From Maylandia zebra (taxonomy: Eukaryota > Chordata > Actinopteri > Cichliformes > Cichlidae), in assembly GCF_041146795.1 (NCBI RefSeq), contig NC_135174.1, positions 5,829,878 to 5,893,877 of the forward strand: a DNA stretch of 64,000 bases, written 5' to 3'. A program made the position numbers and the translations under genes. Under the pieces are notes generated by a model. It saw nothing but the letters and a program-made list of their open reading frames with translations. It was not told the DNA's origin and ran no database searches. Positions 1 to 58,529 of the stretch are shown in pieces; within the stretch, counting starts at the first letter, position 1, and each line of letters opens with the position of its first letter.

Positions 1-964
1 CTGGTACAGAGCGCCGCCAGTTCGAACCCCCACGATCTCGCTGCCACGGCCCTAGCTTGGGGGGCGGGGATGCGCATTCGCGTTTCCCCTTTTGCCTTTT
101 CCTGCTCCAGCCAAGTCCTCCGCCTGCTCCAGCCAAGTCCTCCGCCTGCTCGACATCTCTCCTATTACCTTTTATTACGCTTGCACTCATGCCTTTGCCT
201 TTCACCACTTCAAAACTGCGCCTACTTCAATATTACCTTCATATGCTCTCTTTGCTTTTCGCCTTCCTCACTACACTAAGTACCATTTTTTAACGCTGTG
301 TACTCACTCTTGCTAAGTACATGTGAACAGATCTTGAAGAAAAAAAACAAAACAAAACATACTTTTCTTTTCTCTTTAATTCAAACCACTTTACAGAAAG
401 TACAATTGTTTACAATGAACAAAGGAGTAGGTAGGTTTCCAATGCTTAATTAGTGTGTAAGAATATTGCAGAATCTGCTGTGCTGTGTACTTTGGAAAAA
501 CCATGAGAAGGGCTGGCTGGCTGAAGAAGAAATGATAAATGTCCTTTTTTTTCAAGCCTTCTCTCGGCCTGGCTTGGGGGGCGGGGAGACGTGCACTCGC
601 CTTTCCTTTTTGCTTTTTCCTGCTCTTGCCAAGTCCTCTGCCGGCTCTACATCTCTCCTATTAGCTTTTATTAGGCTTGCACTCATGCCTTTGCCTTTCA
701 CCACTTCAAAAGTGCGCCTACTTGAATATTACCTTGGTAGGCTCTCTTTGTTTTTGGCCTTCCTCACTACACCGTGAAGAGATGTTGAATAAAAAAAAGC
801 AAAGAAAAGATGGTTTTGTTTTGTGTTTTATTGAAAGCACTTTCCAGAAAGTGTAATTGTTTAGAATGAAGACAGAAGTAGGTAGGTAGGTTTCCATGTG
901 TAATTGATGTGTAAGAATATTGCAGAATCTGCTGTGCTGTGTACTTTGTAAAAACCATGAGAAG

Positions 965-1001
<37 letters not shown>
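965..1001 (+). repeat. (GGCT)n microsatellite inside each monomer
   Basis: A run of GGCT repeats closes every A and B monomer. It is long here, while units preceding B have only about two copies before GAAGAAG. Some A units begin the run with GGGCGGGCGG instead (near 1569, 5150, 8515 and 11880). The variable copy number explains most 4-bp steps in monomer spacing. Confidence 0.9.
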
Positions 1002-1002
<1 letters not shown>

Positions 1003-1046
1003 AGAAGAAATGATAAATGTCCTTTTTTTTAACCATTCTCTCGGCC

Positions 1047-1125
1047 GGCCGTTTGGCGTATGATGTGTGGCAGAGCACTCTGGTACAGAGCGCCGCCAGT
1101 TCGAACCCCCACGATCTCGCTGCCA
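1047..1125 (+). repeat. tRNA-like segment unique to A monomers
   Basis: This 79-bp segment is bracketed by CGGCC at 1042-1046 and 1126-1130 and is missing from B. Counting from its first base, TGGCGTA falls at positions 8-14, matching the T8, R9, G10, C11 and A14 of a tRNA A box. GTTCGAACC falls at 53-61, matching the B-box core GWTCRANNC at the standard tRNA coordinates. The segment ends in CCA. The tRNA stems do not pair properly, so it is not an intact tRNA gene. A separate 7-bp dyad, GTGGCAG (1067-1073) with CTGCCAC (1120-1126), is present. A SINE-head-like relic is an inference; chance resemblance remains possible. Confidence 0.4.
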
Positions 1126-1600
1126 CGGCCCTAGCTTGGGGGGCGGGGATGCGCATTCGCGTTTCCCCTTTTGCCTTTTCCTGCTCCAGCCAAGTCCTCC
1201 GCCTGCTCGACATCTCTCCTATTACCTTTTATTACGCTTGCACTCATGCCTTTGCCTTTCACCACTTCAAAACTGCGCCTACTTCAATATTACCTTCATA
1301 TGCTCTCTTTGCTTTTCGCCTTCCTCACTACACTAAGTACCATTTTTTAACGCTGTGTACTCACTCTTGCTAAGTACATGTGAACAGATCTTGAAGAAAA
1401 AAAACAAAACAAAACATACTTTTCTTTTCTCTTTAATTCAAACCACTTTACAGAAAGTACAATTGTTTACAATGAACAAAGGAGTAGGTAGGTTTCCAAT
1501 GCTTAATTAGTGTGTAAGAATATTGCAGAATCTGCTGTGCTGTGTACTTTGTAAAAACCATGAGAAGGGCGGGCGGGCTGGCTGGCTGGCTGGCTGGCTG

Positions 1601-2200
1601 GAGAAGAAATGATAAATGTCCTTTTTTTTAACCATTCTCTCGGCCGGCCGTTTGGCGTATGATGTGTGGCAGAGCACTCTGGTACAGAGCGCCGCCAGTT
1701 CGAACCCCCACGCTCTCGCTGCCACGGCCCTAGCTTGGGGGGCGGGGATGCGCATTCGCGTTTCCCCTTTTGCCTTTTCCTGCTCCAGCCAAGTCCTCCG
1801 CCTGCTCCAGCCAAGTCCTCCGCCTGCTCGACATCTCTCCTATTACCTTTTATTACGCTTGCACTCATGCCTTTGCCTTTCACCACTTCAAAACTGCGCC
1901 TACTTCAATATTACCTTCATATGCTCTCTTTGCTTTTCGCCTTCCTCACTACACTAAGTACCATTTTTTAACGCTGTGTACTCACTCTTGCTAAGTACAT
2001 GTGAACAGATCTTGAAGAAAAAAAACAAAACAAAACATACTTTTCTTTTCTCTTTAATTCAAACCACTTTACAGAAAGTACAATTGTTTACAATGAACAA
2101 AGGAGTAGGTAGGTTTCCAATGCTTAATTAGTGTGTAAGAATATTGCAGAATCTGCTGTGCTGTGTACTTTGGAAAAACCATGAGAAGGGCTGGCTGGCT
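1601..2200 (+). repeat. representative satellite monomer A
   Basis: A complete A unit. In order it has a T8 tract, a GC-rich segment unique to A (two copies of CGGCC bracketing about 79 bp), a G-rich block with GGGGGGCGGGG, one or two copies of the 22-bp unit CAGCCAAGTCCTCCG...CTGCTC (two here), a pyrimidine-rich stretch, an A-rich block, a GTAGGTAGG block and a terminal (GGCT)n run. The ending resembles that of B closely, so A and B share ancestry. Length varies mainly with the 22-bp unit and the (GGCT)n count. Confidence 0.93.
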
Positions 2201-2671
2201 GAAGAAGAAATGATAAATGTCCTTTTTTTTCAAGCCTTCTCTCGGCCTGGCTTGGGGGGCGGGGAGACGTGCACTCGCCTTTCCTTTTTGCTTTTTCCTG
2301 CTCTTGCCAAGTCCTCTGCCGGCTCTACATCTCTCCTATTAGCTTTTATTAGGCTTGCACTCATGCCTTTGCCTTTCACCACTTCAAAAGTGCGCCTACT
2401 TGAATATTACCTTGGTAGGCTCTCTTTGTTTTTGGCCTTCCTCACTACACCGTGAAGAGATGTTGAATAAAAAAAAGCAAAGAAAAGATGGTTTTGTTTT
2501 GTGTTTTATTGAAAGCACTTTCCAGAAAGTGTAATTGTTTAGAATGAAGACAGAAGTAGGTAGGTAGGTTTCCATGTGTAATTGATGTGTAAGAATATTG
2601 CAGAATCTGCTGTGCTGTGTACTTTGTAAAAACCATGAGAAGGGCTGGCTGGCTGGCTGGCTGGCTGGCTG
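2201..2671 (+). repeat. representative satellite monomer B
   Basis: A complete 471-bp B unit. It follows the layout of A but lacks the roughly 80-bp GC-rich segment between CTCTCGGCC and the G-rich block, and diverges from A by scattered substitutions. It carries AATAAA near GTTGAATAAAAAAAAG on the plus strand and TTTATT (AATAAA on the minus strand) in GTGTTTTATTGAAAG. B copies are recognised by GGGGAGACGTGCACTCGC and occur 19 times in the window. Confidence 0.93.
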
Positions 2672-3045
2672 GAGAAGAAATGATAAATGTCCTTTTTTTT
2701 AACCATTCTCTCGGCCGGCCGTTTGGCGTATGATGTGTGGCAGAGCACTCTGGTACAGAGCGCCGCCAGTTCGAACCCCCACGATCTCGCTGCCACGGCC
2801 CTAGCTTGGGGGGCGGGGATGCGCATTCGCGTTTCCCCTTTTGCCTTTTCCTGCTCCAGCCAAGTCCTCCGCCTGCTCCAGCCAAGTCCTCCGCCTGCTC
2901 GACATCTCTCCTATTACCTTTTATTACGCTTGCACTCATGCCTTTGCCTTTCACCACTTCAAAACTGCGCCTACTTCAATATTACCTTCATATGCTCTCT
3001 TTGCTTTTCGCCTTCCTCACTACACTAAGTACCATTTTTTAACGC

Positions 3046-3500
3046 TGTGTACTCACTCTTGCTAAGTACATGTGAACAGATCTTGAAGAAAAAAAACAAA
3101 ACAAAACATACTTTTCTTTTCTCTTTAATTCAAACCACTTTACAGAAAGTACAATTGTTTACAATGAACAAAGGAGTAGGTAGGTTTCCAATGCTTAATT
3201 AGTGTGTAAGAATATTGCAGAATCTGCTGTGCTGTGTACTTTGGAAAAACCATGAGAAGGGCTGGCTGGCTGGCTGTGTACTCACTCTTGCTAAGTACAT
3301 GTGAACAGATCTTGAAGAAAAAAAACAAAACAAAACATACTTTTCTTTTCTCTTTAATTCAAACCACTTTACAGAAAGTACAATTGTTTACAATGAACAA
3401 AGGAGTAGGTAGGTTTCCAATGCTTAATTAGTGTGTAAGAATATTGCAGAATCTGCTGTGCTGTGTACTTTGGAAAAACCATGAGAAGGGCTGGCTGGCT
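3046..3500 (+). repeat. internal partial duplication within an A unit
   Basis: The A unit that begins near 2687 runs to its GGCT tract, then jumps at about 3273 back to GCTGTGTACTCACTCTTGC, repeating the last roughly 227 bp of the unit before the next A begins. This gives the unique 846-bp spacing between A copies at 2687 and 3533. The jump point GGCTG is shared by both sites, consistent with slippage or unequal exchange at short homology. Confidence 0.85.
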
Positions 3501-4559
3501 GGCTGGCTGGCTGGCTGGAGAAGAAATGATAAATGTCCTTTTTTTTAACCATTCTCTCAGCCGGCCGTTTGGCGTATGATGTGTGGCAGAGCACTCTGGT
3601 ACAGAGCGCCGCCAGTTCGAACCCCCACGATCTCGCTGCCACGGCCCTAGCTTGGGGGGCGGGGATGCGCATTCGCGTTTCCCCTTTTGCCTTTTCCTGC
3701 TCCAGCCAAGTCCTCCGCCTGCTCCAGCCAAGTCCTCCGCCTGCTCGACATCTCTCCTATTACCTTTTATTACGCTTGCACTCATGCCTTTGCCTTTCAC
3801 CACTTCAAAACTGCGCCTACTTCAATATTACCTTCATATGCTCTCTTTGCTTTTCGCCTTCCTCACTACACTAAGCACCATTTTTTAACGCTGTGTACTC
3901 ACTCTTGCTAAGTACATGTGAACAGATCTTGAAGAAAAAAAACAAAACAAAACATACTTTTCTTTTCTCTTTAATTCAAACCACTTTACAGAAAGTACAA
4001 TTGTTTACAATGAACAAAGGAGTAGGTAGGTTTCCAATGCTTAATTAGTGTGTAAGAATATTGCAGAATCTGCTGTGCTGTGTACTTTGGAAAAACCATG
4101 AGAAGGGCTGGCTGGCTGAAGAAGAAATGATAAATGTCCTTTTTTTTCAAGCCTTCTCTCGGCCTGGCTTGGGGGGCGGGGAGACGTGCACTCGCCTTTC
4201 CTTTTTGCTTTTTCCTGCTCTTGCCAAGTCCTCTGCCGGCTCTACATCTCTCCTATTAGCTTTTATTAGGCTTGCACTCATGCCTTTGCCTTTCACCACT
4301 TCAAAAGTGCGCCTACTTGAATATTACCTTGGTAGGCTCTCTTTGTTTTTGGCCTTCCTCACTACACCGTGAAGAGATGTTGAATAAAAAAAAGCAAAGA
4401 AAAGATGGTTTTGTTTTGTGTTTTATTGAAAGCACTTTCCAGAAAGTGTAATTGTTTAGAATGAAGACAGAAGTAGGTAGGTAGGTTTCCATGTGTAATT
4501 GATGTGTAAGAATATTGCAGAATCTGCTGTGCTGTGTACTTTGTAAAAACCATGAGAAG

Positions 4560-4593
<34 letters not shown>

Positions 4594-7500
4594 AGAAGAA
4601 ATGATAAATGTCCTTTTTTTTAACCATTCTCTCGGCCGGCCGTTTGGCGTATGATGTGTGGCAGAGCACTCTGGTACAGAGCGCCGCCAGTTCGAACCCC
4701 CACGATCTCGCTGCCACGGCCCTAGCTTGGGGGGCGGGGATGCGCATTCCCCTTTTGCCTTTTCCTGCTCCAGCCAAGTCCTCCGCCTGCTCGACATCTC
4801 TCCTATTACCTTTTATTACGCTTGCACTCATGCCTTTGCCTTTCACCACTTCAAAACTGCGCCTACTTCAATATTACCTTCATATGCTCTCTTTGCTTTT
4901 CGCCTTCCTCACTACACTAAGTACCATTTTTTAACGCTGTGTACTCACTCTTGCTAAGTACATGTGAACAGATCTTGAAGAAAAAAAACAAAACAAAACA
5001 TACTTTTCTTTTCTCTTTAATTCAAACCACTTTACAGAAAGTACAATTGTTTACAATGAACAAAGGAGTAGGTAGGTTTCCAATGCTTAATTAGTGTGTA
5101 AGAATATTGCAGAATCTGCTGTGCTGTGTACTTTGGAAAAACCATGAGAAGGGCGGGCGGGCTGGCTGGCTGGCTGGCTGGCTGGAGAAGAAATGATAAA
5201 TGTCCTTTTTTTTAACCATTCTCTCGGCCGGCCGTTTGGCGTATGATGTGTGGCAGAGCACTCTGGTACAGAGCGCCGCCAGTTCGAACCCCCACGATCT
5301 CGCTGCCACGGCCCTAGCTTGGGGGGCGGGGATGCGCATTCGCGTTTCCCCTTTTGCCTTTTCCTGCTCCAGCCAAGTCCTCCGCCTGCTCCAGCCAAGT
5401 CCTCCGCCTGCTCGACATCTCTCCTATTACCTTTTATTACGCTTGCACTCATGCCTTTGCCTTTCACCACTTCAAAACTGCGCCTACTTCAATATTACCT
5501 TCATATGCTCTCTTTGCTTTTCGCCTTCCTCACTACACTAAGTACCATTTTTTAACGCTGTGTACTCACTCTTGCTAAGTACATGTGAACAGATCTTGAA
5601 GAAAAAAAACAAAACAAAACATACTTTTCTTTTCTCTTTAATTCAAACCACTTTACAGAAAGTACAATTGTTTACAATGAACAAAGGAGTAGGTAGGTTT
5701 CCAATGCTTAATTAGTGTGTAAGAATATTGCAGAATCTGCTGTGCTGTGTACTTTGGAAAAACCATGAGAAGGGCTGGCTGGCTGAAGAAGAAATGATAA
5801 ATGTCCTTTTTTTTCAAGCCTTCTCTCGGCCTGGCTTGGGGGGCGGGGAGACGTGCACTCGCCTTTCCTTTTTGCTTTTTCCTGCTCTTGCCAAGTCCTC
5901 TGCCGGCTCTACATCTCTCCTATTAGCTTTTATTAGGCTTGCACTCATGCCTTTGCCTTTCACCACTTCAAAAGTGCGCCTACTTGAATATTACCTTGGT
6001 AGGCTCTCTTTGTTTTTGGCCTTCCTCACTACACCGTGAAGAGATGTTGAATAAAAAAAAGCAAAGAAAAGATGGTTTTGTTTTGTGTTTTATTGAAAGC
6101 ACTTTCCAGAAAGTGTAATTGTTTAGAATGAAGACAGAAGTAGGTAGGTAGGTTTCCATGTGTAATTGATGTGTAAGAATATTGCAGAATCTGCTGTGCT
6201 GTGTACTTTGTAAAAACCATGAGAAGGGCTGGCTGGCTGGCTGGCTGGCTGGCTGGAGAAGAAATGATAAATGTCCTTTTTTTTAACCATTCTCTCGGCC
6301 GGCCGTTTGGCGTATGATGTGTGGCAGAGCACTCTGGTACAGAGCGCCGCCAGTTCGAACCCCCACGATCTCGCTGCCACGGCCCTAGCTTGGGGGGCGG
6401 GGATGCGCATTCGCGTTTCCCCTTTTGCCTTTTCCTGCTCCAGCCAAGTCCTCCGCCTGCTCCAGCCAAGTCCTCCGCCTGCTCGACATCTCTCCTATTA
6501 CCTTTTATTACGCTTGCACTCATGCCTTTGCCTTTCACCACTTCAAAACTGCGCCTACTTCAATATTACCTTCATATGCTCTCTTTGCTTTTCGCCTTCC
6601 TCACTACACTAAGTACCATTTTTTAACGCTGTGTACTCACTCTTGCTAAGTACATGTGAACAGATCTTGAAGAAAAAAAACAAAACAAAACATACTTTTC
6701 TTTTCTCTTTAATTCAAACCACTTTACAGAAAGTACAATTGTTTACAATGAACAAAGGAGTAGGTAGGTTTCCAATGCTTAATTAGTGTGTAAGAATATT
6801 GCAGAATCTGCTGTGCTGTGTACTTTGGAAAAACCATGAGAAGGGCTGGCTGGCTGGCTGGCTGGCTGGCTGGAGAAGAAATGATAAATGTCCTTTTTTT
6901 TAACCATTCTCTCAGCCGGCCGTTTGGCGTATGATGTGTGGCAGAGCACTCTGGTACAGAGCGCCGCCAGTTCGAACCCCCACGATCTCGCTGCCACGGC
7001 CCTAGCTTGGGGGGCGGGGATGCGCATTCGCGTTTCCCCTTTTGCCTTTTCCTGCTCCAGCCAAGTCCTCCGCCTGCTCCAGCCAAGTCCTCCGCCTGCT
7101 CGACATCTCTCCTATTACCTTTTATTACGCTTGCACTCATGCCTTTGCCTTTCACCACTTCAAAACTGCGCCTACTTCAATATTACCTTCATATGCTCTC
7201 TTTGCTTTTCGCCTTCCTCACTACACTAAGTACCATTTTTTAACGCTGTGTACTCACTCTTGCTAAGTACATGTGAACAGATCTTGAAGAAAAAAAACAA
7301 AACAAAACATACTTTTCTTTTCTCTTTAATTCAAACCACTTTACAGAAAGTACAATTGTTTACAATGAACAAAGGAGTAGGTAGGTTTCCAATGCTTAAT
7401 TAGTGTGTAAGAATATTGCAGAATCTGCTGTGCTGTGTACTTTGGAAAAACCATGAGAAGGGCTGGCTGGCTGAAGAAGAAATGATAAATGTCCTTTTTT

Positions 7501-7914
7501 TTCAAGCCTTCTCTCGGCCTGGCTTGGGGGGCGGGGAGACGTGCACTCGCCTTTCCTTTTTGCTTTTTCCTGCTCTTGCCAAGTCCTCTGCCGGCTCTAC
7601 ATCTCTCCTATTAGCTTTTATTAGGCTTGCACTCATGCCTTTGCCTTTCACCACTTCAAAAGTGCGCCTACTTGAATATTACCTTGGTAGGCTCTCTTTG
7701 TTTTTGGCCTTCCTCACTACACCGTGAAGAGATGTTGAATAAAAAAAAGCAAAGAAAAGATGGTTTTGTTTTGTGTTTTATTGAAAGCACTTTCCAGAAA
7801 GTGTAATTGTTTAGAATGAAGACAGAAGTAGGTAGGTAGGTTTCCATGTGTAATTGATGTGTAAGAATATTGCAGAATCTGCTGTGCTGTGTACTTTGTA
7901 AAAACCATGAGAAG

Positions 7915-7948
<34 letters not shown>

Positions 7949-9588
7949 AGAAGAAATGATAAATGTCCTTTTTTTTAACCATTCTCTCGGCCGGCCGTTT
8001 GGCGTATGATGTGTGGCAGAGCACTCTGGTACAGAGCGCCGCCAGTTCGAACCCCCACGATCTCGCTGCCACGGCCCTATCTTGGGGGGCGGGGATGCGC
8101 ATTCGCGTTTCCCCTTTTGCCTTTTCCTGCTCCAGCCAAGTCCTCCGCCTGCTCGACATCTCTCCTATTACCTTTTATTACGCTTGCACTCATGCCTTTG
8201 CCTTTCACCACTTCAAAACTGCGCCTACTTCAATATTACCTTCATATGCTCTCTTTGCTTTTCGCCTTCCTCACTACACTAAGTACCATTTTTTAACGCT
8301 GTGTACTCACTCTTGCTAAGTACATGTGAACAGATCTTGAAGAAAAAAAACAAAACAAAACATACTTTTCTTTTCTCTTTAATTCAAACCACTTTACAGA
8401 AAGTACAATTGTTTACAATGAACAAAGGAGTAGGTAGGTTTCCAATGCTTAATTAGTGTGTAAGAATATTGCAGAATCTGCTGTGCTGTGTACTTTGTAA
8501 AAACCATGAGAAGGGCGGGCGGGCTGGCTGGCTGGCTGGCTGGCTGGAGAAGAAATGATAAATGTCCTTTTTTTTAACCATTCTCTCGGCCGGCCGTTTG
8601 GCGTATGATGTGTGGCAGAGCACTCTGGTACAGAGCGCCGCCAGTTCGAACCCCCACGATCTCGCTGCCACGGCCCTAGCTTGGGGGGCGGGGATGCGCA
8701 TTCGCGTTTCCCCTTTTGCCTTTTCCTGCTCCAGCCAAGTCCTCCGCCTGCTCCAGCCAAGTCCTCCGCCTGCTCGACATCTCTCCTATTACCTTTTATT
8801 ACGCTTGCACTCATGCCTTTGCCTTTCACCACTTCAAAACTGCGCCTACTTCAATATTACCTTCATATGCTCTCTTTGCTTTTCGCCTTCCTCACTACAC
8901 TAAGTACCATTTTTTAACGCTGTGTACTCACTCTTGCTAAGTACATGTGAACAGATCTTGAAGAAAAAAAACAAAACAAAACATACTTTTCTTTTCTCTT
9001 TAATTCAAACCACTTTACAGAAAGTACAATTGTTTACAATGAACAAAGGAGTAGGTAGGTTTCCAATGCTTAATTAGTGTGTAAGAATATTGCAGAATCT
9101 GCTGTGCTGTGTACTTTGGAAAAACCATGAGAAGGGCTGGCTGGCTGAAGAAGAAATGATAAATGTCCTTTTTTTTCAAGCCTTCTCTCGGCCTGGCTTG
9201 GGGGGCGGGGAGACGTGCACTCGCCTTTCCTTTTTGCTTTTTCCTGCTCTTGCCAAGTCCTCTGCCGGCTCTACATCTCTCCTATTAGCTTTTATTAGGC
9301 TTGCACTCATGCCTTTGCCTTTCACCACTTCAAAAGTGCGCCTACTTGAATATTACCTTGGTAGGCTCTCTTTGTTTTTGGCCTTCCTCACTACACCGTG
9401 AAGAGATGTTGAATAAAAAAAAGCAAAGAAAAGATGGTTTTGTTTTGTGTTTTATTGAAAGCACTTTCCAGAAAGTGTAATTGTTTAGAATGAAGACAGA
9501 AGTAGGTAGGTAGGTTTCCATGTGTAATTGATGTGTAAGAATATTGCAGAATCTGCTGTGCTGTGTACTTTGTAAAAACCATGAGAAG

Positions 9589-9622
<34 letters not shown>

Positions 9623-11280
9623 AGAAGAAATGATAAATGTCCTTTTTTTTAACCATTCTCTCGGCCGGCCGTTTGGCGTATGATGTGTGGCAGAGCACTC
9701 TGGTACAGAGCGCTGCCAGTTCGAACCCCCACGATCTCGCTGCCACGGCCCTAGCTTGGGGGGCGGGGATGCGCATTCGCGTTTCCCCTTTTGCCTTTTC
9801 CTGCTCCAGCCAAGTCCTCCGCCTGCTCCAGCCAAGTCCTCCGCCTGCTCGACATCTCTCCTATTACCTTTTATTACGCTTGCACTCATGCCTTTGCCTT
9901 TCACCACTTCAAAACTGCGCCTACTTCAATATTACCTTCATATGCTCTCTTTGCTTTTCGCCTTCCTCACTACACTAAGTACCATTTTTTAACGCTGTGT
10001 ACTCACTCTTGCTAAGTACATGTGAACAGATCTTGAAGAAAAAAAACAAAACAAAACATACTTTTCTTTTCTCTTTAATTCAAACCACTTTACAGAAAGT
10101 ACAATTGTTTACAATGAACAAAGGAGTAGGTAGGTTTCCAATGCTTAATTAGTGTGTAAGAATATTGCAGAATCTGCTGTGCTGTGTACTTTGGAAAAAC
10201 CATGAGAAGGGCTGGCTGGCTGGCTGGCTGGCTGGCTGGAGAAGAAATGATAAATGTCCTTTTTTTTAACCATTCTCTCAGCCGGCCGTTTGGCGTATGA
10301 TGTGTGGCAGAGCACTCTGGTACAGAGCGCCGCCAGTTCGAACCCCCACGATCTCGCTGCCACGGCCCTAGCTTGGGGGGCGGGGATGCGCATTCGCGTT
10401 TCCCCTTTTGCCTTTTCCTGCTCCAGCCAAGTCCTCCGCCTGCTCCAGCCAAGTCCTCCGCCTGCTCGACATCTCTCCTATTACCTTTTATTACGCTTGC
10501 ACTCATGCCTTTGCCTTTCACCACTTCAAAACTGCGCCTACTTCAATATTACCTTCATATGCTCTCTTTGCTTTTCGCCTTCCTCACTACACTAAGTACC
10601 ATTTTTTAACGCTGTGTACTCACTCTTGCTAAGTACATGTGAACAGATCTTGAAGAAAAAAAACAAAACAAAACATACTTTTCTTTTCTCTTTAATTCAA
10701 ACCACTTTACAGAAAGTACAATTGTTTACAATGAACAAAGGAGTAGGTAGGTTTCCAATGCTTAATTAGTGTGTAAGAATATTGCAGAATCTGCTGTGCT
10801 GTGTACTTTGGAAAAACCATGAGAAGGGCTGGCTGGCTGAAGAAGAAATGATAAATGTCCTTTTTTTTCAAGCCTTCTCTCGGCCTGGCTTGGGGGGCGG
10901 GGAGACGTGCACTCGCCTTTCCTTTTTGCTTTTTCCTGCTCTTGCCAAGTCCTCTGCCGGCTCTACATCTCTCCTATTAGCTTTTATTAGGCTTGCACTC
11001 ATGCCTTTGCCTTTCACCACTTCAAAAGTGCGCCTACTTGAATATTACCTTGGTAGGCTCTCTTTGTTTTTGGCCTTCCTCACTACACCGTGAAGAGATG
11101 TTGAATAAAAAAAAGCAAAGAAAAGATGGTTTTGTTTTGTGTTTTATTGAAAGCACTTTCCAGAAAGTGTAATTGTTTAGAATGAAGACAGAAGTAGGTA
11201 GGTAGGTTTCCATGTGTAATTGATGTGTAAGAATATTGCAGAATCTGCTGTGCTGTGTACTTTGTAAAAACCATGAGAAG

Positions 11281-11314
<34 letters not shown>

Positions 11315-12504
11315 AGAAGAAATGATAAATGTCCTTTTTTTTAACCATTCTCTCGGCCGGCCGTTTGGCGTATGATGTGTGGCAGAGCACTCTGGTACAG
11401 AGCGCCGCCAGTTCGAACCCCCACGATCTCGCTGCCACGGCCCTAGCTTGGGGGGCGGGGATGCGCATTCGCGTTTCCCCTTTTGCCTTTTCCTGCTCCA
11501 GCCAAGTCCTCTGCCTGCTCGACATCTCTCCTATTACCTTTTATTACGCTTGCACTCATGCCTTTGCCTTTCACCACTTCAAAACTGCGCCTACTTCAAT
11601 ATTACCTTCATATGCTCTCTTTGCTTTTCGCCTTCCTCACTACACTAAGTACCATTTTTTAACGCTGTGTACTCACTCTTGCTAAGTACATGTGAACAGA
11701 TCTTGAAGAAAAAAAACAAAACAAAACATACTTTTCTTTTCTCTTTAATTCAAACCACTTTACAGAAAGTACAATTGTTTACAATGAACAAAGGAGTAGG
11801 TAGGTTTCCAATGCTTAATTAGTGTGTAAGAATATTGCAGAATCTGCTGTGCTGTGTACTTTGTAAAAACCATGAGAAGGGCGGGCGGGCTGGCTGGCTG
11901 GCTGGCTGGCTGGCTGGAGAAGAAATGATAAATGTCCTTTTTTTTAACCATTCTCTCGGCCGGCCGTTTGGCGTATGATGTGTGGCAGAGCACTCTGGTA
12001 CAGAGCGCCGCCAGTTCGAACCCCCACGATCTCGCTGCCACGGCCCTAGCTTGGGGGGCGGGGATGCGCATTCGCGTTTCCCCTTTTGCCTTTTCCTGCT
12101 CCAGCCAAGTCCTCCGCCTGCTCCAGCCAAGTCCTCCGCCTGCTCGACATCTCTCCTATTACCTTTTATTACGCTTGCACTCATGCCTTTGCCTTTCACC
12201 ACTTCAAAACTGCGCCTACTTCAATATTACCTTCATATGCTCTCTTTGCTTTTCGCCTTCCTCACTACACTAAGTACCATTTTTTAACGCTGTGTACTCA
12301 CTCTTGCTAAGTACATGTGAACAGATCTTGAAGAAAAAAAACAAAACAAAACATACTTTTCTTTTCTCTTTAATTCAAACCACTTTACAGAAAGTACAAT
12401 TGTTTACAATGAACAAAGGAGTAGGTAGGTTTCCAATGCTTAATTAGTGTGTAAGAATATTGCAGAATCTGCTGTGCTGTGTACTTTGTAAAAACCATGA
12501 GAAG

Positions 12505-12538
<34 letters not shown>

Positions 12539-13579
12539 AGAAGAAATGATAAATGTCCTTTTTTTTAACCATTCTCTCAGCCGGCCGTTTGGCGTATGAT
12601 GTGTGGCAGAGCACTCTGGTACAGAGCGCCGCCAGTTCGAACCCCCACGATCTCGCTGCCACGGCCCTAGCTAGGGGGGCGGGGATGCGCATTCGCGTTT
12701 CCCCTTTTGCCTTTTCCTGCTCCAGCCAAGTCCTCCGCCTGCTCCAGCCAAGTCCTCCGCCTGCTCGACATCTCTCCTATTACCTTTTATTACGCTTGCA
12801 CTCATGCCTTTGCCTTTCACCACTTCAAAACTGCGCCTACTTCAATATTACCTTCATATGCTCTCTTTGCTTTTCGCCTTCCTCACTACACTAAGTACCA
12901 TTTTTTAACGCTGTGTACTCACTCTTGCTAAGTACATGTGAACAGATCTTGAAGAAAAAAAACAAAACAAAACATACTTTTCTTTTCTCTTTAATTCAAA
13001 CCACTTTACAGAAAGTACAATTGTTTACAATGAACAAAGGAGTAGGTAGGTTTCCAATGCTTAATTAGTGTGTAAGAATATTGCAGAATCTGCTGTGCTG
13101 TGTACTTTGGAAAAACCATGAGAAGGGCTGGCTGGCTGAAGAAGAAATGATAAATGTCCTTTTTTTTCAAGCCTTCTCTCGGCCTGGCTTGGGGGGCGGG
13201 GAGACGTGCACTCGCCTTTCCTTTTTGCTTTTTCCTGCTCTTGCCAAGTCCTCTGCCGGCTCTACATCTCTCCTATTAGCTTTTATTAGGCTTGCACTCA
13301 TGCCTTTGCCTTTCACCACTTCAAAAGTGCGCCTACTTGAATATTACCTTGGTAGGCTCTCTTTGTTTTTGGCCTTCCTCACTACACCGTGAAGAGATGT
13401 TGAATAAAAAAAAGCAAAGAAAAGATGGTTTTGTTTTGTGTTTTATTGAAAGCACTTTCCAGAAAGTGTAATTGTTTAGAATGAAGACAGAAGTAGGTAG
13501 GTAGGTTTCCATGTGTAATTGATGTGTAAGAATATTGCAGAATCTGCTGTGCTGTGTACTTTGTAAAAACCATGAGAAG

Positions 13580-13613
<34 letters not shown>

Positions 13614-14178: not shown

Positions 14179-14212
<34 letters not shown>

Positions 14213-20200: not shown

Positions 20201-22928
20201 GGAAAAACCATGAGAAGGGCTGGCTGGCTGAAGAAGAAATGATAAATGTCCTTTTTTTTCAAGCCTTCTCTCGGCCTGGCTTGGGGGGCGGGGAGACGTG
20301 CACTCGCCTTTCCTTTTTGCTTTTTCCTGCTCTTGCCAAGTCCTCTGCCGGCTCTACATCTCTCCTATTAGCTTTTATTAGGCTTGCACTCATGCCTTTG
20401 CCTTTCACCACTTCAAAAGTGCGCCTACTTGAATATTACCTTGGTAGGCTCTCTTTGTTTTTGGCCTTCCTCACTACACCGTGAAGAGATGTTGAATAAA
20501 AAAAAGCAAAGAAAAGATGGTTTTGTTTTGTGTTTTATTGAAAGCACTTTCCAGAAAGTGTAATTGTTTAGAATGAAGACAGAAGTAGGTAGGTAGGTTT
20601 CCATGTGTAATTGATGTGTAAGAATATTGCAGAATCTGCTGTGCTGTGTACTTTGTAAAAACCATGAGAAGGGCTGGCTGGCTGGCTGGCTGGCTGGCTG
20701 GAGAAGAAATGATAAATGTCCTTTTTTTTAACCATTCTCTCGGCCGGCCGTTTGGCGTATGATGTGTGGCAGAGCACTCTGGTACAGAGCGCCGCCAGTT
20801 CGAACCCCCACGATCTCGCTGCCACGGCCCTAGCTTGGGGGGCGGGGATGCGCATTCGCGTTTCCCCTTTTGCCTTTTCCTGCTCCAGCCAAGTCCTCCG
20901 CCTGCTCGACATCTCTCCTATTACCTTTTATTACGCTTGCACTCATGCCTTTGCCTTTCACCACTTCAAAACTGCGCCTACTTCAATATTACCTTCATAT
21001 GCTCTCTTTGCTTTTCGCCTTCCTCACTACACTAAGTACCATTTTTTAACGCTGTGTACTCACTCTTGCTAAGTACATGTGAACAGATCTTGAAGAAAAA
21101 AAACAAAACAAAACATACTTTTCTTTTCTCTTTAATTCAAACCACTTTACAGAAAGTACAATTGTTTACAATGAACAAAGGAGTAGGTAGGTTTCCAATG
21201 CTTAATTAGTGTGTAAGAATATTGCAGAATCTGCTGTGCTGTGTACTTTGTAAAAACCATGAGAAAGGCTGGCTGGCTGGCTGGCTGGCTGGAGAAGAAA
21301 TGATAAATGTCCTTTTTTTTAACCATTCTCTCGGCCGGCCGTTTGGCGTATGATGTGTGGCAGAGCACTCTGGTACAGAGCGCCGCCAGTTCGAACCCCC
21401 ACGATCTCGCTGCCACGGCCCTAGCTTGGGGGGCGGGGATGCGCATTCGCGTTTCCCCTTTTGCCTTTTCCTGCTCCAGCCAAGTCCTCCGCCTGCTCCA
21501 GCCAAGTCCTCCGCCTGCTCGACATCTCTCCTATTACCTTTTATTACGCTTGCACTCATGCCTTTGCCTTTCACCACTTCAAAACTGCGCCTACTTCAAT
21601 ATTACCTTCATATGCTCTCTTTGCTTTTCGCCTTCCTCACTACACTAAGTACCATTTTTTAACGCTGTGTACTCACTCTTGCTAAGTACATGTGAACAGA
21701 TCTTGAAGAAAAAAAACAAAACAAAACATACTTTTCTTTTCTCTTTAATTCAAACCACTTTACAGAAAGTACAATTGTTTACAATGAACAAAGGAGTAGG
21801 TAGGTTTCCAATGCTTAATTAGTGTGTAAGAATATTGCAGAATCTGCTGTGCTGTGTACTTTGGAAAAACCATGAGAAGGGCTGGCTGGCTGAAGAAGAA
21901 ATGATAAATGTCCTTTTTTTTCAAGCCTTCTCTCGGCCTGGCTTGGGGGGCGGGGAGACGTGCACTCGCCTTTCCTTTTTGCTTTTTCCTGCTCTTGCCA
22001 AGTCCTCTGCCGGCTCTACATCTCTCCTATTAGCTTTTATTAGGCTTGCACTCATGCCTTTGCCTTTCACCACTTCAAAAGTGCGCCTACTTGAATATTA
22101 CCTTGGTAGGCTCTCTTTGTTTTTGGCCTTCCTCACTACACCGTGAAGAGATGTTGAATAAAAAAAAGCAAAGAAAAGATGGTTTTGTTTTGTGTTTTAT
22201 TGAAAGCACTTTCCAGAAAGTGTAATTGTTTAGAATGAAGACAGAAGTAGGTAGGTAGGTTTCCATGTGTAATTGATGTGTAAGAATATTGCAGAATCTG
22301 CTGTGCTGTGTACTTTGTAAAAACCATGAGAAGGGCTGGCTGGCTGGCTGGCTGGCTGGCTGGAGAAGAAATGATAAATGTCCTTTTTTTTAACCATTCT
22401 CTCGGCCGGCCGTTTGGCGTATGATGTGTGGCAGAGCACTCTGGTACAGAGCGCCGCCAGTTCGAACCCCCACGATCTCGCTGCCACGGCCCTAGCTTGG
22501 GGGGCGGGGATGCGCATTCGCGTTTCCCCTTTTGCCTTTTCCTGCTCCAGCCAAGTCCTCCGCCTGCTCGACATCTCTCCTATTACCTTTTATTACGCTT
22601 GCACTCATGCCTTTGCCTTTCACCACTTCAAAACTGCGCCTACTTCAATATTACCTTCATATGCTCTCTTTGCTTTTCGCCTTCCTCACTACACTAAGTA
22701 CCATTTTTTAACGCTGTGTACTCACTCTTGCTAAGTACATGTGAACAGATCTTGAAGAAAAAAAACAAAACAAAACATACTTTTCTTTTCTCTTTAATTC
22801 AAACCACTTTACAGAAAGTACAATTGTTTACAATGAACAAAGGAGTAGGTAGGTTTCCAATGCTTAATTAGTGTGTAAGAATATTGCAGAATCTGCTGTG
22901 CTGTGTACTTTGTAAAAACCATGAGAAG

Positions 22929-22966
<38 letters not shown>

Positions 22967-24624
22967 AGAAGAAATGATAAATGTCCTTTTTTTTAACCAT
23001 TCTCTCGGCCGGCCGTTTGGCGTATGATGTGTGGCAGAGCACTCTGGTACAGAGCGCCGCCAGTTCGAACCCCCACGATCTCGCTGCCACGGCCCTAGCT
23101 TGGGGGGCGGGGATGCGCATTCGCGTTTCCCCTTTTGCCTTTTCCTGCTCCAGCCAAGTCCTCCGCCTGCTCCAGCCAAGTCCTCCGCCTGCTCGACATC
23201 TCTCCTATTACCTTTTATTACGCTTGCACTCATGCCTTTGCCTTTCACCACTTCAAAACTGCGCCTACTTCAATATTACCTTCATATGCTCTCTTTGCTT
23301 TTCGCCTTCCTCACTACACTAAGTACCATTTTTTAACGCTGTGTACTCACTCTTGCTAAGTACATGTGAACAGATCTTGAAGAAAAAAAACAAAACAAAA
23401 CATACTTTTCTTTTCTCTTTAATTCAAACCACTTTACAGAAAGTACAATTGTTTACAATGAACAAAGGAGTAGGTAGGTTTCCAATGCTTAATTAGTGTG
23501 TAAGAATATTGCAGAATCTGCTGTGCTGTGTACTTTGGAAAAACCATGAGAAGGGCTGGCTGGCTGAAGAAGAAATGATAAATGTCCTTTTTTTTCAAGC
23601 CTTCTCTCGGCCTGGCTTGGGGGGCGGGGAGACGTGCACTCGCCTTTCCTTTTTGCTTTTTCCTGCTCTTGCCAAGTCCTCTGCCGGCTCTACATCTCTC
23701 CTATTAGCTTTTATTAGGCTTGCACTCATGCCTTTGCCTTTCACCACTTCAAAAGTGCGCCTACTTGAATATTACCTTGGTAGGCTCTCTTTGTTTTTGG
23801 CCTTCCTCACTACACCGTGAAGAGATGTTGAATAAAAAAAAGCAAAGAAAAGATGGTTTTGTTTTGTGTTTTATTGAAAGCACTTTCCAGAAAGTGTAAT
23901 TGTTTAGAATGAAGACAGAAGTAGGTAGGTAGGTTTCCATGTGTAATTGATGTGTAAGAATATTGCAGAATCTGCTGTGCTGTGTACTTTGTAAAAACCA
24001 TGAGAAGGGCTGGCTGGCTGGCTGGCTGGCTGGCTGGAGAAGAAATGATAAATGTCCTTTTTTTTAACCATTCTCTCGGCCGGCCGTTTGGCGTATGATG
24101 TGTGGCAGAGCACTCTGGTACAGAGCGCCGCCAGTTCGAACCCCCACGATCTCGCTGCCACGGCCCTAGCTTGGGGGGCGGGGATGCGCATTCGCGTTTC
24201 CCCTTTTGCCTTTTCCTGCTCCAGCCAAGTCCTCCGCCTGCTCCAGCCAAGTCCTCCGCCTGCTCGACATCTCTCCTATTACCTTTTATTACGCTTGCAC
24301 TCATGCCTTTGCCTTTCACCACTTCAAAACTGCGCCTACTTCAATATTACCTTCATATGCTCTCTTTGCTTTTCGCCTTCCTCACTACACTAAGTACCAT
24401 TTTTTAACGCTGTGTACTCACTCTTGCTAAGTACATGTGAACAGATCTTGAAGAAAAAAAACAAAACAAAACATACTTTTCTTTTCTCTTTAATTCAAAC
24501 CACTTTACAGAAAGTACAATTGTTTACAATGAACAAAGGAGTAGGTAGGTTTCCAATGCTTAATTAGTGTGTAAGAATATTGCAGAATCTGCTGTGCTGT
24601 GTACTTTGGAAAAACCATGAGAAG

Positions 24625-24658
<34 letters not shown>

Positions 24659-26294
24659 AGAAGAAATGATAAATGTCCTTTTTTTTAACCATTCTCTCGG
24701 CCGGCCGTTTGGCGTATGATGTGTGGCAGAGCACTCTGGTACAGAGCGCCGCCAGTTCGAACCCCCACGATCTCGCTGCCACGGCCCTAGCTTGGGGGGC
24801 GGGGATGCGCATTCGCGTTTCCCCTTTTGCCTTTTCCTGCTCCAGCCAAGTCCTCCGCCTGCTCGACATCTCTCCTATTACCTTTTATTACGCTTGCACT
24901 CATGCCTTTGCCTTTCACCACTTCAAAACTGCGCCTACTTCAATATTACCTTCATATGCTCTCTTTGCTTTTCGCCTTCCTCACTACACTAAGTACCATT
25001 TTTTAACGCTGTGTACTCACTCTTGCTAAGTACATGTGAACAGATCTTGAAGAAAAAAAACAAAACAAAACATACTTTTCTTTTCTCTTTAATTCAAACC
25101 ACTTTACAGAAAGTACAATTGTTTACAATGAACAAAGGAGTAGGTAGGTTTCCAATGCTTAATTAGTGTGTAAGAATATTGCAGAATCTGCTGTGCTGTG
25201 TACTTTGGAAAAACCATGAGAAGGGCTGGCTGGCTGAAGAAGAAATGATAAATGTCCTTTTTTTTCAAGCCTTCTCTCGGCCTGGCTTGGGGGGCGGGGA
25301 GACGTGCACTCGCCTTTCCTTTTTGCTTTTTCCTGCTCTTGCCAAGTCCTCTGCCGGCTCTACATCTCTCCTATTAGCTTTTATTAGGCTTGCACTCATG
25401 CCTTTGCCTTTCACCACTTCAAAAGTGCGCCTACTTGAATATTACCTTGGTAGGCTCTCTTTGTTTTTGGCCTTCCTCACTACACCGTGAAGAGATGTTG
25501 AATAAAAAAAAGCAAAGAAAAGATGGTTTTGTTTTGTGTTTTATTGAAAGCACTTTCCAGAAAGTGTAATTGTTTAGAATGAAGACAGAAGTAGGTAGGT
25601 AGGTTTCCATGTGTAATTGATGTGTAAGAATATTGCAGAATCTGCTGTGCTGTGTACTTTGTAAAAACCATGAGAAGGGCTGGCTGGCTGGCTGGCTGGC
25701 TGGCTGGAGAAGAAATGATAAATGTCCTTTTTTTTAACCATTCTCTCGGCCGGCCGTTTGGCGTATGATGTGTGGCAGAGCACTCTGGTACAGAGCGCCG
25801 CCAGTTCGAACCCCCACGATCTCGCTGCCACGGCCCTAGCTTGGGGGGCGGGGATGCGCATTCGCGTTTCCCCTTTTGCCTTTTCCTGCTCCAGCCAAGT
25901 CCTCCGCCTGCTCCAGCCAAGTCCTCCGCCTGCTCGACATCTCTCCTATTACCTTTTATTACGCTTGCACTCATGCCTTTGCCTTTCACCACTTCAAAAC
26001 TGCGCCTACTTCAATATTACCTTCATATGCTCTCTTTGCTTTTCGCCTTCCTCACTACACTAAGTACCATTTTTTAACGCTGTGTACTCACTCTTGCTAA
26101 GTACATGTGAACAGATCTTGAAGAAAAAAAACAAAACAAAACATACTTTTCTTTTCTCTTTAATTCAAACCACTTTACAGAAAGTACAATTGTTTACAAT
26201 GAACAAAGGAGTAGGTAGGTTTCCAATGCTTAATTAGTGTGTAAGAATATTGCAGAATCTGCTGTGCTGTGTACTTTGGAAAAACCATGAGAAG

Positions 26295-26328
<34 letters not shown>

Positions 26329-28577
26329 AGAAGAAATGATAAATGTCCTTTTTTTTAACCATTCTCTCGGCCGGCCGTTTGGCGTATGATGTGTGGCAGA
26401 GCACTCTGGTACAGAGCGCCGCCAGTTCGAACCCCCACGATCTCGCTGCCACGGCCCTAGCTTGGGGGGCGGGGATGCGCATTCGCGTTTCCCCTTTTGC
26501 CTTTTCCTGCTCCAGCCAAGTCCTCCGCCTGCTCGACATCTCTCCTATTACCTTTTATTACGCTTGCACTCATGCCTTTGCCTTTCACCACTTCAAAACT
26601 GCGCCTACTTCAATATTACCTTCATATGCTCTCTTTGCTTTTCGCCTTCCTCACTACACTAAGTACCATTTTTTAACGCTGTGTACTCACTCTTGCTAAG
26701 TACATGTGAACAGATCTTGAAGAAAAAAAACAAAACAAAACATACTTTTCTTTTCTCTTTAATTCAAACCACTTTACAGAAAGTACAATTGTTTACAATG
26801 AACAAAGGAGTAGGTAGGTTTCCAATGCTTAATTAGTGTGTAAGAATATTGCAGAATCTGCTGTGCTGTGTACTTTGTAAAAACCATGAGAAGGGCTGGC
26901 TGGCTGGCTGGCTGGCTGGAGAAGAAATGATAAATGTCCTTTTTTTTAACCATTCTCTCGGCCGGCCGTTTGGCGTATGATGTGTGGCAGAGCACTCTGG
27001 TACAGAGCGCCGCCAGTTCGAACCCCCACGATCTCGCTGCCACGGCCCTAGCTTGGGGGGCGGGGATGCGCATTCGCGTTTCCCCTTTTGCCTTTTCCTG
27101 CTCCAGCCAAGTCCTCCGCCTGCTCCAGCCAAGTCCTCCGCCTGCTCGACATCTCTCCTATTACCTTTTATTACGCTTGCACTCATGCCTTTGCCTTTCA
27201 CCACTTCAAAACTGCGCCTACTTCAATATTACCTTCATATGCTCTCTTTGCTTTTCGCCTTCCTCACTACACTAAGTACCATTTTTTAACGCTGTGTACT
27301 CACTCTTGCTAAGTACATGTGAACAGATCTTGAAGAAAAAAAACAAAACAAAACATACTTTTCTTTTCTCTTTAATTCAAACCACTTTACAGAAAGTACA
27401 ATTGTTTACAATGAACAAAGGAGTAGGTAGGTTTCCAATGCTTAATTAGTGTGTAAGAATATTGCAGAATCTGCTGTGCTGTGTACTTTGGAAAAACCAT
27501 GAGAAGGGCTGGCTGGCTGAAGAAGAAATGATAAATGTCCTTTTTTTTCAAGCCTTCTCTCGGCCTGGCTTGGGGGGCGGGGAGACGTGCACTCGCCTTT
27601 CCTTTTTGCTTTTTCCTGCTCTTGCCAAGTCCTCTGCCGGCTCTACATCTCTCCTATTAGCTTTTATTAGGCTTGCACTCATGCCTTTGCCTTTCACCAC
27701 TTCAAAAGTGCGCCTACTTGAATATTACCTTGGTAGGCTCTCTTTGTTTTTGGCCTTCCTCACTACACCGTGAAGAGATGTTGAATAAAAAAAAGCAAAG
27801 AAAAGATGGTTTTGTTTTGTGTTTTATTGAAAGCACTTTCCAGAAAGTGTAATTGTTTAGAATGAAGACAGAAGTAGGTAGGTAGGTTTCCATGTGTAAT
27901 TGATGTGTAAGAATATTGCAGAATCTGCTGTGCTGTGTACTTTGTAAAAACCATGAGAAGGGCTGGCTGGCTGGCTGGCTGGCTGGCTGGAGAAGAAATG
28001 ATAAATGTCCTTTTTTTTAACCATTCTCTCGGCCGGCCGTTTGGCGTATGATGTGTGGCAGAGCACTCTGGTACAGAGCGCCGCCAGTTCGAACCCCCAC
28101 GATCTCGCTGCCACGGCCCTAGCTTGGGGGGCGGGGATGCGCATTCGCGTTTCCCCTTTTGCCTTTTCCTGCTCCAGCCAAGTCCTCCGCCTGCTCCAGC
28201 CAAGTCCTCCGCCTGCTCGACATCTCTCCTATTACCTTTTATTACGCTTGCACTCATGCCTTTGCCTTTCACCACTTCAAAACTGCGCCTACTTCAATAT
28301 TACCTTCATATGCTCTCTTTGCTTTTCGCCTTCCTCACTACACTAAGTACCATTTTTTAACGCTGTGTACTCACTCTTGCTAAGTACATGTGAACAGATC
28401 TTGAAGAAAAAAAACAAAACAAAACATACTTTTCTTTTCTCTTTAATTCAAACCACTTTACAGAAAGTACAATTGTTTACAATGAACAAAGGAGTAGGTA
28501 GGTTTCCAATGCTTAATTAGTGTGTAAGAATATTGCAGAATCTGCTGTGCTGTGTACTTTGGAAAAACCATGAGAAG

Positions 28578-28611
<34 letters not shown>

Positions 28612-30269
28612 AGAAGAAATGATAAATGTCCTTTTTTTTAACCATTCTCTCGGCCGGCCGTTTGGCGTATGATGTGTGGCAGAGCACTCTGGTACAGAGC
28701 GCCGCCAGTTCGAACCCCCACGATCTCGCTGCCACGGCCCTAGCTTGGGGGGCGGGGATGCGCATTCGCGTTTCCCCTTTTGCCTTTTCCTGCTCCAGCC
28801 AAGTCCTCCGCCTGCTCCAGCCAAGTCCTCCGCCTGCTCGACATCTCTCCTATTACCTTTTATTACGCTTGCACTCATGCCTTTGCCTTTCACCACTTCA
28901 AAACTGCGCCTACTTCAATATTACCTTCATATGCTCTCTTTGCTTTTCGCCTTCCTCACTACACTAAGTACCATTTTTTAACGCTGTGTACTCACTCTTG
29001 CTAAGTACATGTGAACAGATCTTGAAGAAAAAAAACAAAACAAAACATACTTTTCTTTTCTCTTTAATTCAAACCACTTTACAGAAAGTACAATTGTTTA
29101 CAATGAACAAAGGAGTAGGTAGGTTTCCAATGCTTAATTAGTGTGTAAGAATATTGCAGAATCTGCTGTGCTGTGTACTTTGGAAAAACCATGAGAAGGG
29201 CTGGCTGGCTGAAGAAGAAATGATAAATGTCCTTTTTTTTCAAGCCTTCTCTCGGCCTGGCTTGGGGGGCGGGGAGACGTGCACTCGCCTTTCCTTTTTG
29301 CTTTTTCCTGCTCTTGCCAAGTCCTCTGCCGGCTCTACATCTCTCCTATTAGCTTTTATTAGGCTTGCACTCATGCCTTTGCCTTTCACCACTTCAAAAG
29401 TGCGCCTACTTGAATATTACCTTGGTAGGCTCTCTTTGTTTTTGGCCTTCCTCACTACACCGTGAAGAGATGTTGAATAAAAAAAAGCAAAGAAAAGATG
29501 GTTTTGTTTTGTGTTTTATTGAAAGCACTTTCCAGAAAGTGTAATTGTTTAGAATGAAGACAGAAGTAGGTAGGTAGGTTTCCATGTGTAATTGATGTGT
29601 AAGAATATTGCAGAATCTGCTGTGCTGTGTACTTTGTAAAAACCATGAGAAGGGCTGGCTGGCTGGCTGGCTGGCTGGCTGGAGAAGAAATGATAAATGT
29701 CCTTTTTTTTAACCATTCTCTCGGCCGGCCGTTTGGCGTATGATGTGTGGCAGAGCACTCTGGTACAGAGCGCCGCCAGTTCGAACCCCCACGATCTCGC
29801 TGCCACGGCCCTAGCTTGGGGGGCGGGGATGCGCATTCGCGTTTCCCCTTTTGCCTTTTCCTGCTCCAGCCAAGTCCTCCGCCTGCTCCAGCCAAGTCCT
29901 CCGCCTGCTCGACATCTCTCCTATTACCTTTTATTACGCTTGCACTCATGCCTTTGCCTTTCACCACTTCAAAACTGCGCCTACTTCAATATTACCTTCA
30001 TATGCTCTCTTTGCTTTTCGCCTTCCTCACTACACTAAGTACCATTTTTTAACGCTGTGTACTCACTCTTGCTAAGTACATGTGAACAGATCTTGAAGAA
30101 AAAAAACAAAACAAAACATACTTTTCTTTTCTCTTTAATTCAAACCACTTTACAGAAAGTACAATTGTTTACAATGAACAAAGGAGTAGGTAGGTTTCCA
30201 ATGCTTAATTAGTGTGTAAGAATATTGCAGAATCTGCTGTGCTGTGTACTTTGGAAAAACCATGAGAAG

Positions 30270-30303
<34 letters not shown>

Positions 30304-30890
30304 AGAAGAAATGATAAATGTCCTTTTTTTTAACCATTCTCTCGGCCGGCCGTTTGGCGTATGATGTGTGGCAGAGCACTCTGGTACAGAGCGCCGCCAG
30401 TTCGAACCCCCACGATCTCGCTGCCACGGCCCTAGCTTGGGGGGCGGGGATGCGCATTCGCGTTTCCCCTTTTGCCTTTTCCTGCTCCAGCCAAGTCCTC
30501 CGCCTGCTCCAGCCAAGTCCTCCGCCTGCTCGACATCTCTCCTATTACCTTTTATTACGCTTGCACTCATGCCTTTGCCTTTCACCACTTCAAAACTGCG
30601 CCTACTTCAATATTACCTTCATATGCTCTCTTTGCTTTTCGCCTTCCTCACTACACTAAGTACCATTTTTTAACGCTGTGTACTCACTCTTGCTAAGTAC
30701 ATGTGAACAGATCTTGAAGAAAAAAAACAAAACAAAACATACTTTTCTTTTCTCTTTAATTCAAACCACTTTACAGAAAGTACAATTGTTTACAATGAAC
30801 AAAGGAGTAGGTAGGTTTCCAATGCTTAATTAGTGTGTAAGAATATTGCAGAATCTGCTGTGCTGTGTACTTTGTAAAAACCATGAGAAG

Positions 30891-30924
<34 letters not shown>

Positions 30925-31827
30925 AGAAGAAATGATAAATGTCCTTTTTTTTAACCATTCTCTCGGCCGGCCGTTTGGCGTATGATGTGTGGCAGAGCAC
31001 TCTGGTACAGAGCGCCGCCAGTTCGAACCCCCACGATCTCGCTGCCACGGCCCTAGCTTGGGGGGCGGGGATGCGCATTCGCGTTTCCCCTTTTGCCTTT
31101 TCCTGCTCCAGCCAAGTCCTCCGCCTGCTCCAGCCAAGTCCTCCGCCTGCTCGACATCTCTCCTATTACCTTTTATTACGCTTGCACTCATGCCTTTGCC
31201 TTTCACCACTTCAAAACTGCGCCTACTTCAATATTACCTTCATATGCTCTCTTTGCTTTTCGCCTTCCTCACTACACTAAGTACCATTTTTTAACGCTGT
31301 GTACTCACTCTTGCTAAGTACATGTGAACAGATCTTGAAGAAAAAAAACAAAACAAAACATACTTTTCTTTTCTCTTTAATTCAAACCACTTTACAGAAA
31401 GTACAATTGTTTACAATGAACAAAGGAGTAGGTAGGTTTCCAATGCTTAATTAGTGTGTAAGAATATTGCAGAATCTGCTGTGCTGTGTACTTTGGAAAA
31501 ACCATGAGAAGGGCTGGCTGGCTGAAGAAGAAATGATAAATGTCCTTTTTTTTCAAGCCTTCTCTCGGCCTGGCTTGGGGGGCGGGGAGACGTGCACTCG
31601 CCTTTCCTTTTTGCTTTTTCCTGCTCTTGCCAAGTCCTCTGCCGGCTCTACATCTCTCCTATTAGCTTTTATTAGGCTTGCACTCATGCCTTTGCCTTTC
31701 ACCACTTCAAAAGTGCGCCTACTTGAATATTACCTTGGTAGGCTCTCTTTGTTTTTGGCCTTCCTCACTACACCGTGAAGAGATGTTGAATAAAAAAAAG
31801 CAAAGAAAAGATGGTTTTGTTTTGTGT

Positions 31828-31833
31828 TTTATT
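31828..31833 (-). promoter_or_regulatory. nearest canonical poly(A) signal for the matrin-like gene, inside the satellite
   Basis: TTTATT on the plus strand reads AATAAA on the minus strand. I see no other AATAAA between this point and the stop codon at 32,152-32,154. If used, the 3' UTR would cover the unique flank plus the terminal part-copy and part of a B monomer. Whether it is used cannot be told from sequence. Confidence 0.4.
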
Positions 31834-31971
31834 GAAAGCACTTTCCAGAAAGTGTAATTGTTTAGAATGAAGACAGAAGTAGGTAGGTAGGTTTCCATGT
31901 GTAATTGATGTGTAAGAATATTGCAGAATCTGCTGTGCTGTGTACTTTGTAAAAACCATGAGAAGGGCTGG

Positions 31972-32029
31972 CTGGAGAAGAAATGATAAATGTCCTTTTT
32001 TTTAAACGTTCTGTCTGCCGGCCGTTTGG
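31972..32029 (+). repeat. truncated, diverged terminal satellite copy
   Basis: The array ends here. After GAGAAGAAATGATAAATG and the T8 tract the sequence continues as AAACGTTCTGTCTGCC, which differs from the uniform AACCATTCTCTCGGCC of internal copies, keeps GGCCGTTTGG, and then enters unrelated single-copy DNA at AAGAAACAAATC. Edge copies escaping homogenisation commonly look like this. Confidence 0.85.
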
Positions 32030-32077
32030 AAGAAACAAATCACAAAACCCCAAACATGTACACAGTCATCCAGGACA

Positions 32078-32111
32078 CACATACACACACATATACATAT
32101 ATATATACACT
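32078..32111. repeat. CA/TA microsatellite
   Basis: Short alternating CACA and TATA tract between the satellite edge and the last coding exon, within the presumed 3' UTR of the minus-strand gene. Confidence 0.85.
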
Positions 32112-32151
32112 CTGCACAGTTATGTGTTAAAAATACAGTAGATCAGGTCCA

Positions 32152-56369: not shown

Positions 56370-56393
56370 ACCAAAAGAAATTAGCAACTAGGG

Positions 56394-58522: not shown

Positions 58523-58529
58523 AACTGTG

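Follow-up and report, generated by a model that had tools for sequence, protein, structure and literature searches.

What kind of tandem repeat lies beside exons on contig C8 of the Maylandia zebra genome (962 Mb in 63 contigs), and how did the order of its units arise? The stretch of DNA analysed, hereafter called the window, comprises 64,000 nucleotides (C8 5829878-5893877), and an earlier note on it had described a satellite of two related monomers, A and B, over its positions 1-32029. The array is probably a non-coding satellite of recent origin, in which unequal exchange built and homogenised the higher-order unit A1-A2-B.

The array was cut into units at the common word GAAGAAATGATAAATGTCC, which yielded 56 complete units in window 1-32029, 37 of type A and 19 of type B. 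The A units are 579-621 bases long, with one more of 846 bases, and the B units 450-478 bases. Runs of A between successive Bs (n = 18) consist of two units in 13 instances, three units in 3 and one unit in 2, which are exactly the 13 AAB, 3 AAAB and 2 AB blocks counted in the earlier note. Mean divergence within the window was 0.42% among As (666 pairs) and 0.13% among Bs (171 pairs). Both values are far below the divergence between the two types, for which the aligned consensuses differ at 51 of 458 bases (about 11%) and a single pair at 50 of 463 sites. Relative to B, the A unit also contains additional blocks of about 85, 45 and 22 bp. The ends of the 85-bp block, or head, are ambiguous by a few bases because GGCC is present on both sides. 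Repeats reported by TRF at periods of up to 500 were those inside units only. The partial unit at the right edge has private changes when inspected by eye, in agreement with the diverged edge copy noted earlier. The longest open reading frame in window 1-4700 encodes 178 amino acids and none spans the higher-order unit, and a coding role for the satellite was rejected on this evidence. Coordinates of the features are collected in Table 1.

Table 1 Features located in the window, with positions numbered from its first nucleotide.
Feature	Position	Strand	Description	Basis
Array 1, right 32 kb	1..32029	+	units in A1-A2-B order	unit cutting, array mapping
A unit, 846 bp	2674..3519	+	229-bp internal tandem duplication (TRF 3044-3505)	
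Example B unit, 470 bp	29214..29683	+	shorter than A by the 85-bp head, 45-bp block and a single 22-bp copy	
Example A1 unit, 621 bp	30305..30925	+	long GGCT tail ending GGA; next unit is an A	
A-only head, 85 bp	30347..30431	+	contains GTTCGAACC at 30400-30408, a loose match to a pol III B box	
Example A2 unit, 601 bp	30926..31526	+	short tail with terminal GAA, as in As that precede a B on C8	
Last B unit	31527..31976	+	tail shortest among the 19	
Partial unit at array edge	31977..32029	+	ends GCCGGCCGTTTGG	
Segment G, start	32030..41099	-	pieces 98-99.8% like the C1 inverted-repeat arms; minus-strand exon-like frames; interrupted by sequence unmatched in C1	
Segment X1, first part	55147..64000	.	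resembles X0 (left of array 1) in pieces, at 99-100%	

Reading of C8 was extended beyond the window by 100 kb on its left and 20 kb on its right. The array, hereafter called array 1, spans C8 5762331-5861906, a length of 99.6 kb of which the window carries the right third; the earlier estimate of at least 32 kb thus holds, with 67.5 kb more to the left of the window. Array 1 contains 111 A units, 56 B units and a single short unit, together with eight units of a third kind, b, of about 700 bp, in which a B is extended by an additional A tail. It runs head-to-tail in one orientation, with 195 marker words forward and none reverse in 184 kb of C8. The tails of the A units follow their right-hand neighbours strictly: all 60 As preceding a B on C8 have a short tail ending GAA (A2), and all 51 As preceding another A have a long tail (A1). 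A2-B therefore acts as one dimer on C8, with A1 as an insert. Two B-B adjacencies are present in array 1, and as few were obtained in none of 20,000 shuffles. This order, the tail rule and the divergences given above confirm the description of the array as an ordered higher-order repeat. Three regimes can be distinguished by eye along array 1: bABA predominates over the left 19 kb, AAB with AAAAB occupies the middle, and AAB the right. Runs of identical units recur at fixed offsets (nine units at 4618 bp and seven at 22918 bp), and 77 distinct sequences were counted among the 193 units of the C8 stretch read (gap entry excluded).

Array 1 forms part of a larger segmental duplication on C8, with the layout X0-array1-G1-X1-array2-G2-X2, in which segments G and X were found repeated wherever they were read. 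Array 2 is about 35.5 kb long and starts 40.6 kb beyond array 1; the parts read are the stretch 5902461-5913877, a sample of 800 bases, and the stretch 5937000-5937958 with its right edge. X0 and X1 are 99-100% identical in pieces of 0.7-9 kb with unmatched gaps between them. X2, covered by one 800-base sample and 1.3 kb of reading, is 99.1-99.4% identical over the 1.3 kb. G2 is 99.9% identical in one 800-base sample, and the 1.2 kb beside the array edge is 99.3% identical to C1. The junctions can be read directly. X0 and X1 switch to array after AAAAACAAAACATA, the next bases being CTTTTC, where X2 continues from AAAAACAAAACATA into AAGCTG. The last 13 bases before this switch are also present in the A unit; this run, which is rich in A, is a putative microhomology. 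The right edge, GGCCGTTTGG followed by AAGAAAC, is common to array 1, to C1 at 33018967 and to array 2 at C8 5937958. No array words were found beyond X2 up to C8 5982500, and the sequence that follows X2 is presumably the native C8 flank.

The array had been described as lying directly against a coding gene. It does abut the 3' side of exons, but only about 9 kb of a 24-kb arm on C1 is matched on C8, in three pieces at 98-99.8%, and the C8 segment is therefore a partial copy of the C1 segment. G1 and the right arm on C1 differ at 26 of 6650 sites. Six exon frames of the adjoining putative gene matched no Pfam family and the joined exons no PDB entry; by eye, its product could be guessed to be matrin-like. 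Elsewhere in the right half of the window, A/T-rich tandem repeats with TTAATTAATTATTGACACATTTAA-like units occur at both 43157-43503 and 46609-46794. The open reading frames at 49054-49548 and 50255-50989 resemble remnants of a non-LTR element by eye; in Pfam the former matched ALKBH8_N (49 bits), and the latter gave a sub-threshold match to HTH_91 only.

Relatives of the array were located on two further contigs. At C1 32993481-33043019 lies an inverted duplication of 24 kb, whose arms differ by 21 substitutions over 24049 aligned positions; the 1.4-kb spacer between them carries an incomplete A followed by a B and the array right edge. On C18, at about 24096305-24097919, a single B-A-A-B unit is present in circularly permuted form, opened inside B, with ends that overlap by 2 bp and CTG flanking it on both sides. 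This permuted unit departs from the tail rule of C8, with a long tail on the A before B, and one of its As is without part of the head. Its As share the form GAACAAAGAAG with the A on C1; this form is absent from the C8 stretch read, where GAACAAAGGAG occurs in its place 138 times. A 30-base word with the GAACAAAGAAG form has 384 exact copies in the 962 Mb (142 forward, 242 reverse), and among the matches listed one is on C1 and 99 are on C18 at 23956997-24009402. The latter mark an array of A words on the reverse strand, known from word positions alone. The 98 spacings among those listed are 491 (53 cases), 587 (32), 581 (10), and 585, 586 and 588 (one each), which are too small for an A plus a B. 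A 40-mer of the A head has 356 exact copies in the 962 Mb (235 forward, 121 reverse); all 100 among the matches listed are on C8. Placement assigned 111 copies to array 1 and eight to the read part of array 2, leaving 237 of the 356, namely 116 forward (including any in the rest of array 2) and 121 reverse. An earlier similarity search had skipped common words and missed even the window's own array. The copies on C1 and C18 rule out a satellite or macrosatellite confined to one locus.

Several other explanations of the array were weighed. The earlier interpretation joined a higher-order satellite, which stands, to a centromeric or heterochromatic setting, for which no support was found. That the C8 block is one of several parts of a centromeric or pericentromeric satellite would fit its higher-order order, homogeneity and size, the presence of the family on at least three contigs (C8, C1 and C18), and the range of 20-345 kb given for medaka centromeric repeat regions in the available part of one report (PMC5705604). 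A large centromeric or unplaced block may also lie among the 237 remaining copies of the 40-mer. This explanation is nevertheless unlikely, as the array occupies an interstitial position, at 5.8 Mb of a 31-Mb contig, within an exon-containing segmental duplication. Among 20 samples of 800 bases spread over C8 5.49-6.19 Mb, one fell in an array (array 2), two matched G or X, two gave weak repeat matches at 72-78%, and 15 matched no compared sequence; array words were absent from 19 of the 20. The observed/expected CpG ratio is 0.56 in the array against 0.48 in the flank, which is no depletion; location and CpG content bear on context and not on centromere function. An assembly artefact, in which the array length, array 2 or the X copies were created by the assembler, was given even less weight and is improbable. 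Unit divergence of less than about 1% is within the range in which misassembly occurs, but the joined sequences of C8 (184 kb) and C1 (82 kb) contain no N, regimes succeed one another along array 1, and private variants occur in array 2, on C1 and on C18. These different variants make an artefact less likely.

It was also considered that a tRNA-derived element transcribed by pol III might make up the tandem array, with a promoter head in each A and none in B. The word GTTCGAACC within the A head, the GGCC bordering the head on either side and the clean absence of the head from B are in line with such an origin, which was nonetheless judged quite unlikely. A lax Rfam search of window 1000-3600 (E up to 10) returned six matches, none of them a tRNA; the best E was 0.39 and none came close to its own gathering score. 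ARAGORN found no tRNAs in the window. A B box of the GTTCGAACC kind arose in 16% of shuffles and is within chance, no A box matching the consensus applied was found at the correct distance from the B-box-like word, and the fold of the A head has a z score of -1.4. A tRNA-derived SINE array is not supported, as no tRNA match and only the B-box-like word were found.

The preferred explanation, a young satellite grown by exchange, can be set out as a series of proposed steps. Unequal exchange would have built and homogenised the A1-A2-B higher-order unit, and the A2-B dimer plus A1 units would have expanded to an array of 100 kb. The array and the adjoining C1-like segment would have been joined by microhomology to the C8 site. 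The block array-G-X may then have been repeated in tandem to give the layout now seen. Transfer presumably ran from C1 to C8, the order of C1, C8 and C18 being unrooted. Single units may also move as circles, as the one permuted insertion on C18 suggests. We infer no centromeric or other cellular role for the array, and its growth is probably a by-product of exchange. Steps in the growth of a satellite that normally disappear seem to survive in one assembly: C1 has a partial A-B dimer, C18 both a permuted single unit and an A-spaced array, and C8 the higher-order array. With these stages and readable C8 junctions kept, the origin and spread of the higher-order order are testable.

The alpha satellite monomer of primates is about 170 bp long. 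Primate alpha satellite and medaka centromeric repeats (PMC5705604) likewise have ordered, homogenised monomer types in local regimes, whereas the monomers here are 450-621 bp long and lie interstitially beside exons, and no evidence of a centromere was found. Macrosatellites such as DXZ4 (PMC3081327, PMC3491370) are likewise large homogeneous arrays among other sequence; the present array differs in having shorter units, several types and more than one locus. Higher-order 5S rDNA arrays of pike (PMC5437419) are also fish tandem arrays with variant blocks, but here neither 5S nor any other Rfam match reached gathering score in the 64-kb window, and ribosomal DNA or its spacer was dismissed as far as Rfam shows. 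Circles of higher-order length, comparable to satellite-derived circular DNA of plants (PMC2543021), would explain the permuted C18 unit; here they are proposed from that unit and none was observed. The centromere-associated cichlid satellites ONSATA and TZSAT (PMC6447674) likewise occur on several chromosomes, a likeness by description only. These comparisons draw on the available parts of the cited reports. Exact-match scans of viral contigs and genome contigs, collections that are not of fish, gave no match. The monomer is named in no title or abstract opening among the literature matches listed, a weak result since sequences cannot be searched there. In this company the array looks like an ordinary higher-order satellite with a readable history.

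The differences between A and B show a pattern of their own. Between the A unit at 30305-30925 and the B unit at 29214-29683, the 50 differences comprise 20 C>G, one G>C, eight C>T and 21 others, the direction of C>G versus G>C being unrooted. All 20 sites with C in A and G in B follow an A or T (20 of 55 such Cs, none of the 57 other Cs; p 8e-8), and 19 of the 20 lie inside 253 bp; the pattern was spotted before the tests were run, and the A/T context partly follows from an A/T-rich stretch. Eight further duplicate pairs, taken as a control from the same contigs, gave 27 C-G exchanges (18 C>G, 9 G>C) in 232 substitutions, compared with 21 of 50 between A and B (Fisher p 2e-6). A quasi-palindrome of 51 bp (A 410-460) holds eight of the 20 C>G changes; outside this core there remain 12 C>G and one G>C among 38 differences (p 9e-4). 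It is conceivable, though doubtful, that B was made from A not by drift but in one burst, or a small number of them, in which (A/T)C sites changed from C to G in a strand-coordinated way. Cytosines of one strand would have been lost and the change copied across during break repair, and the A/B pair would then have supplied the higher-order order of the array. If so, satellite subtypes may come from clustered mutation instead of slow divergence, which would add a route to monomer subtypes. A local inversion may have been the source of part of the C-G pattern, on mixed evidence. Inverted A aligned locally to B with a score of 37 (controls 23 and 21), and blastn returned an inverted A-B match of 17 bp (E 0.004); over a 62-bp stretch, plain alignment scored 34.0 against 13.5 for the inverted one.
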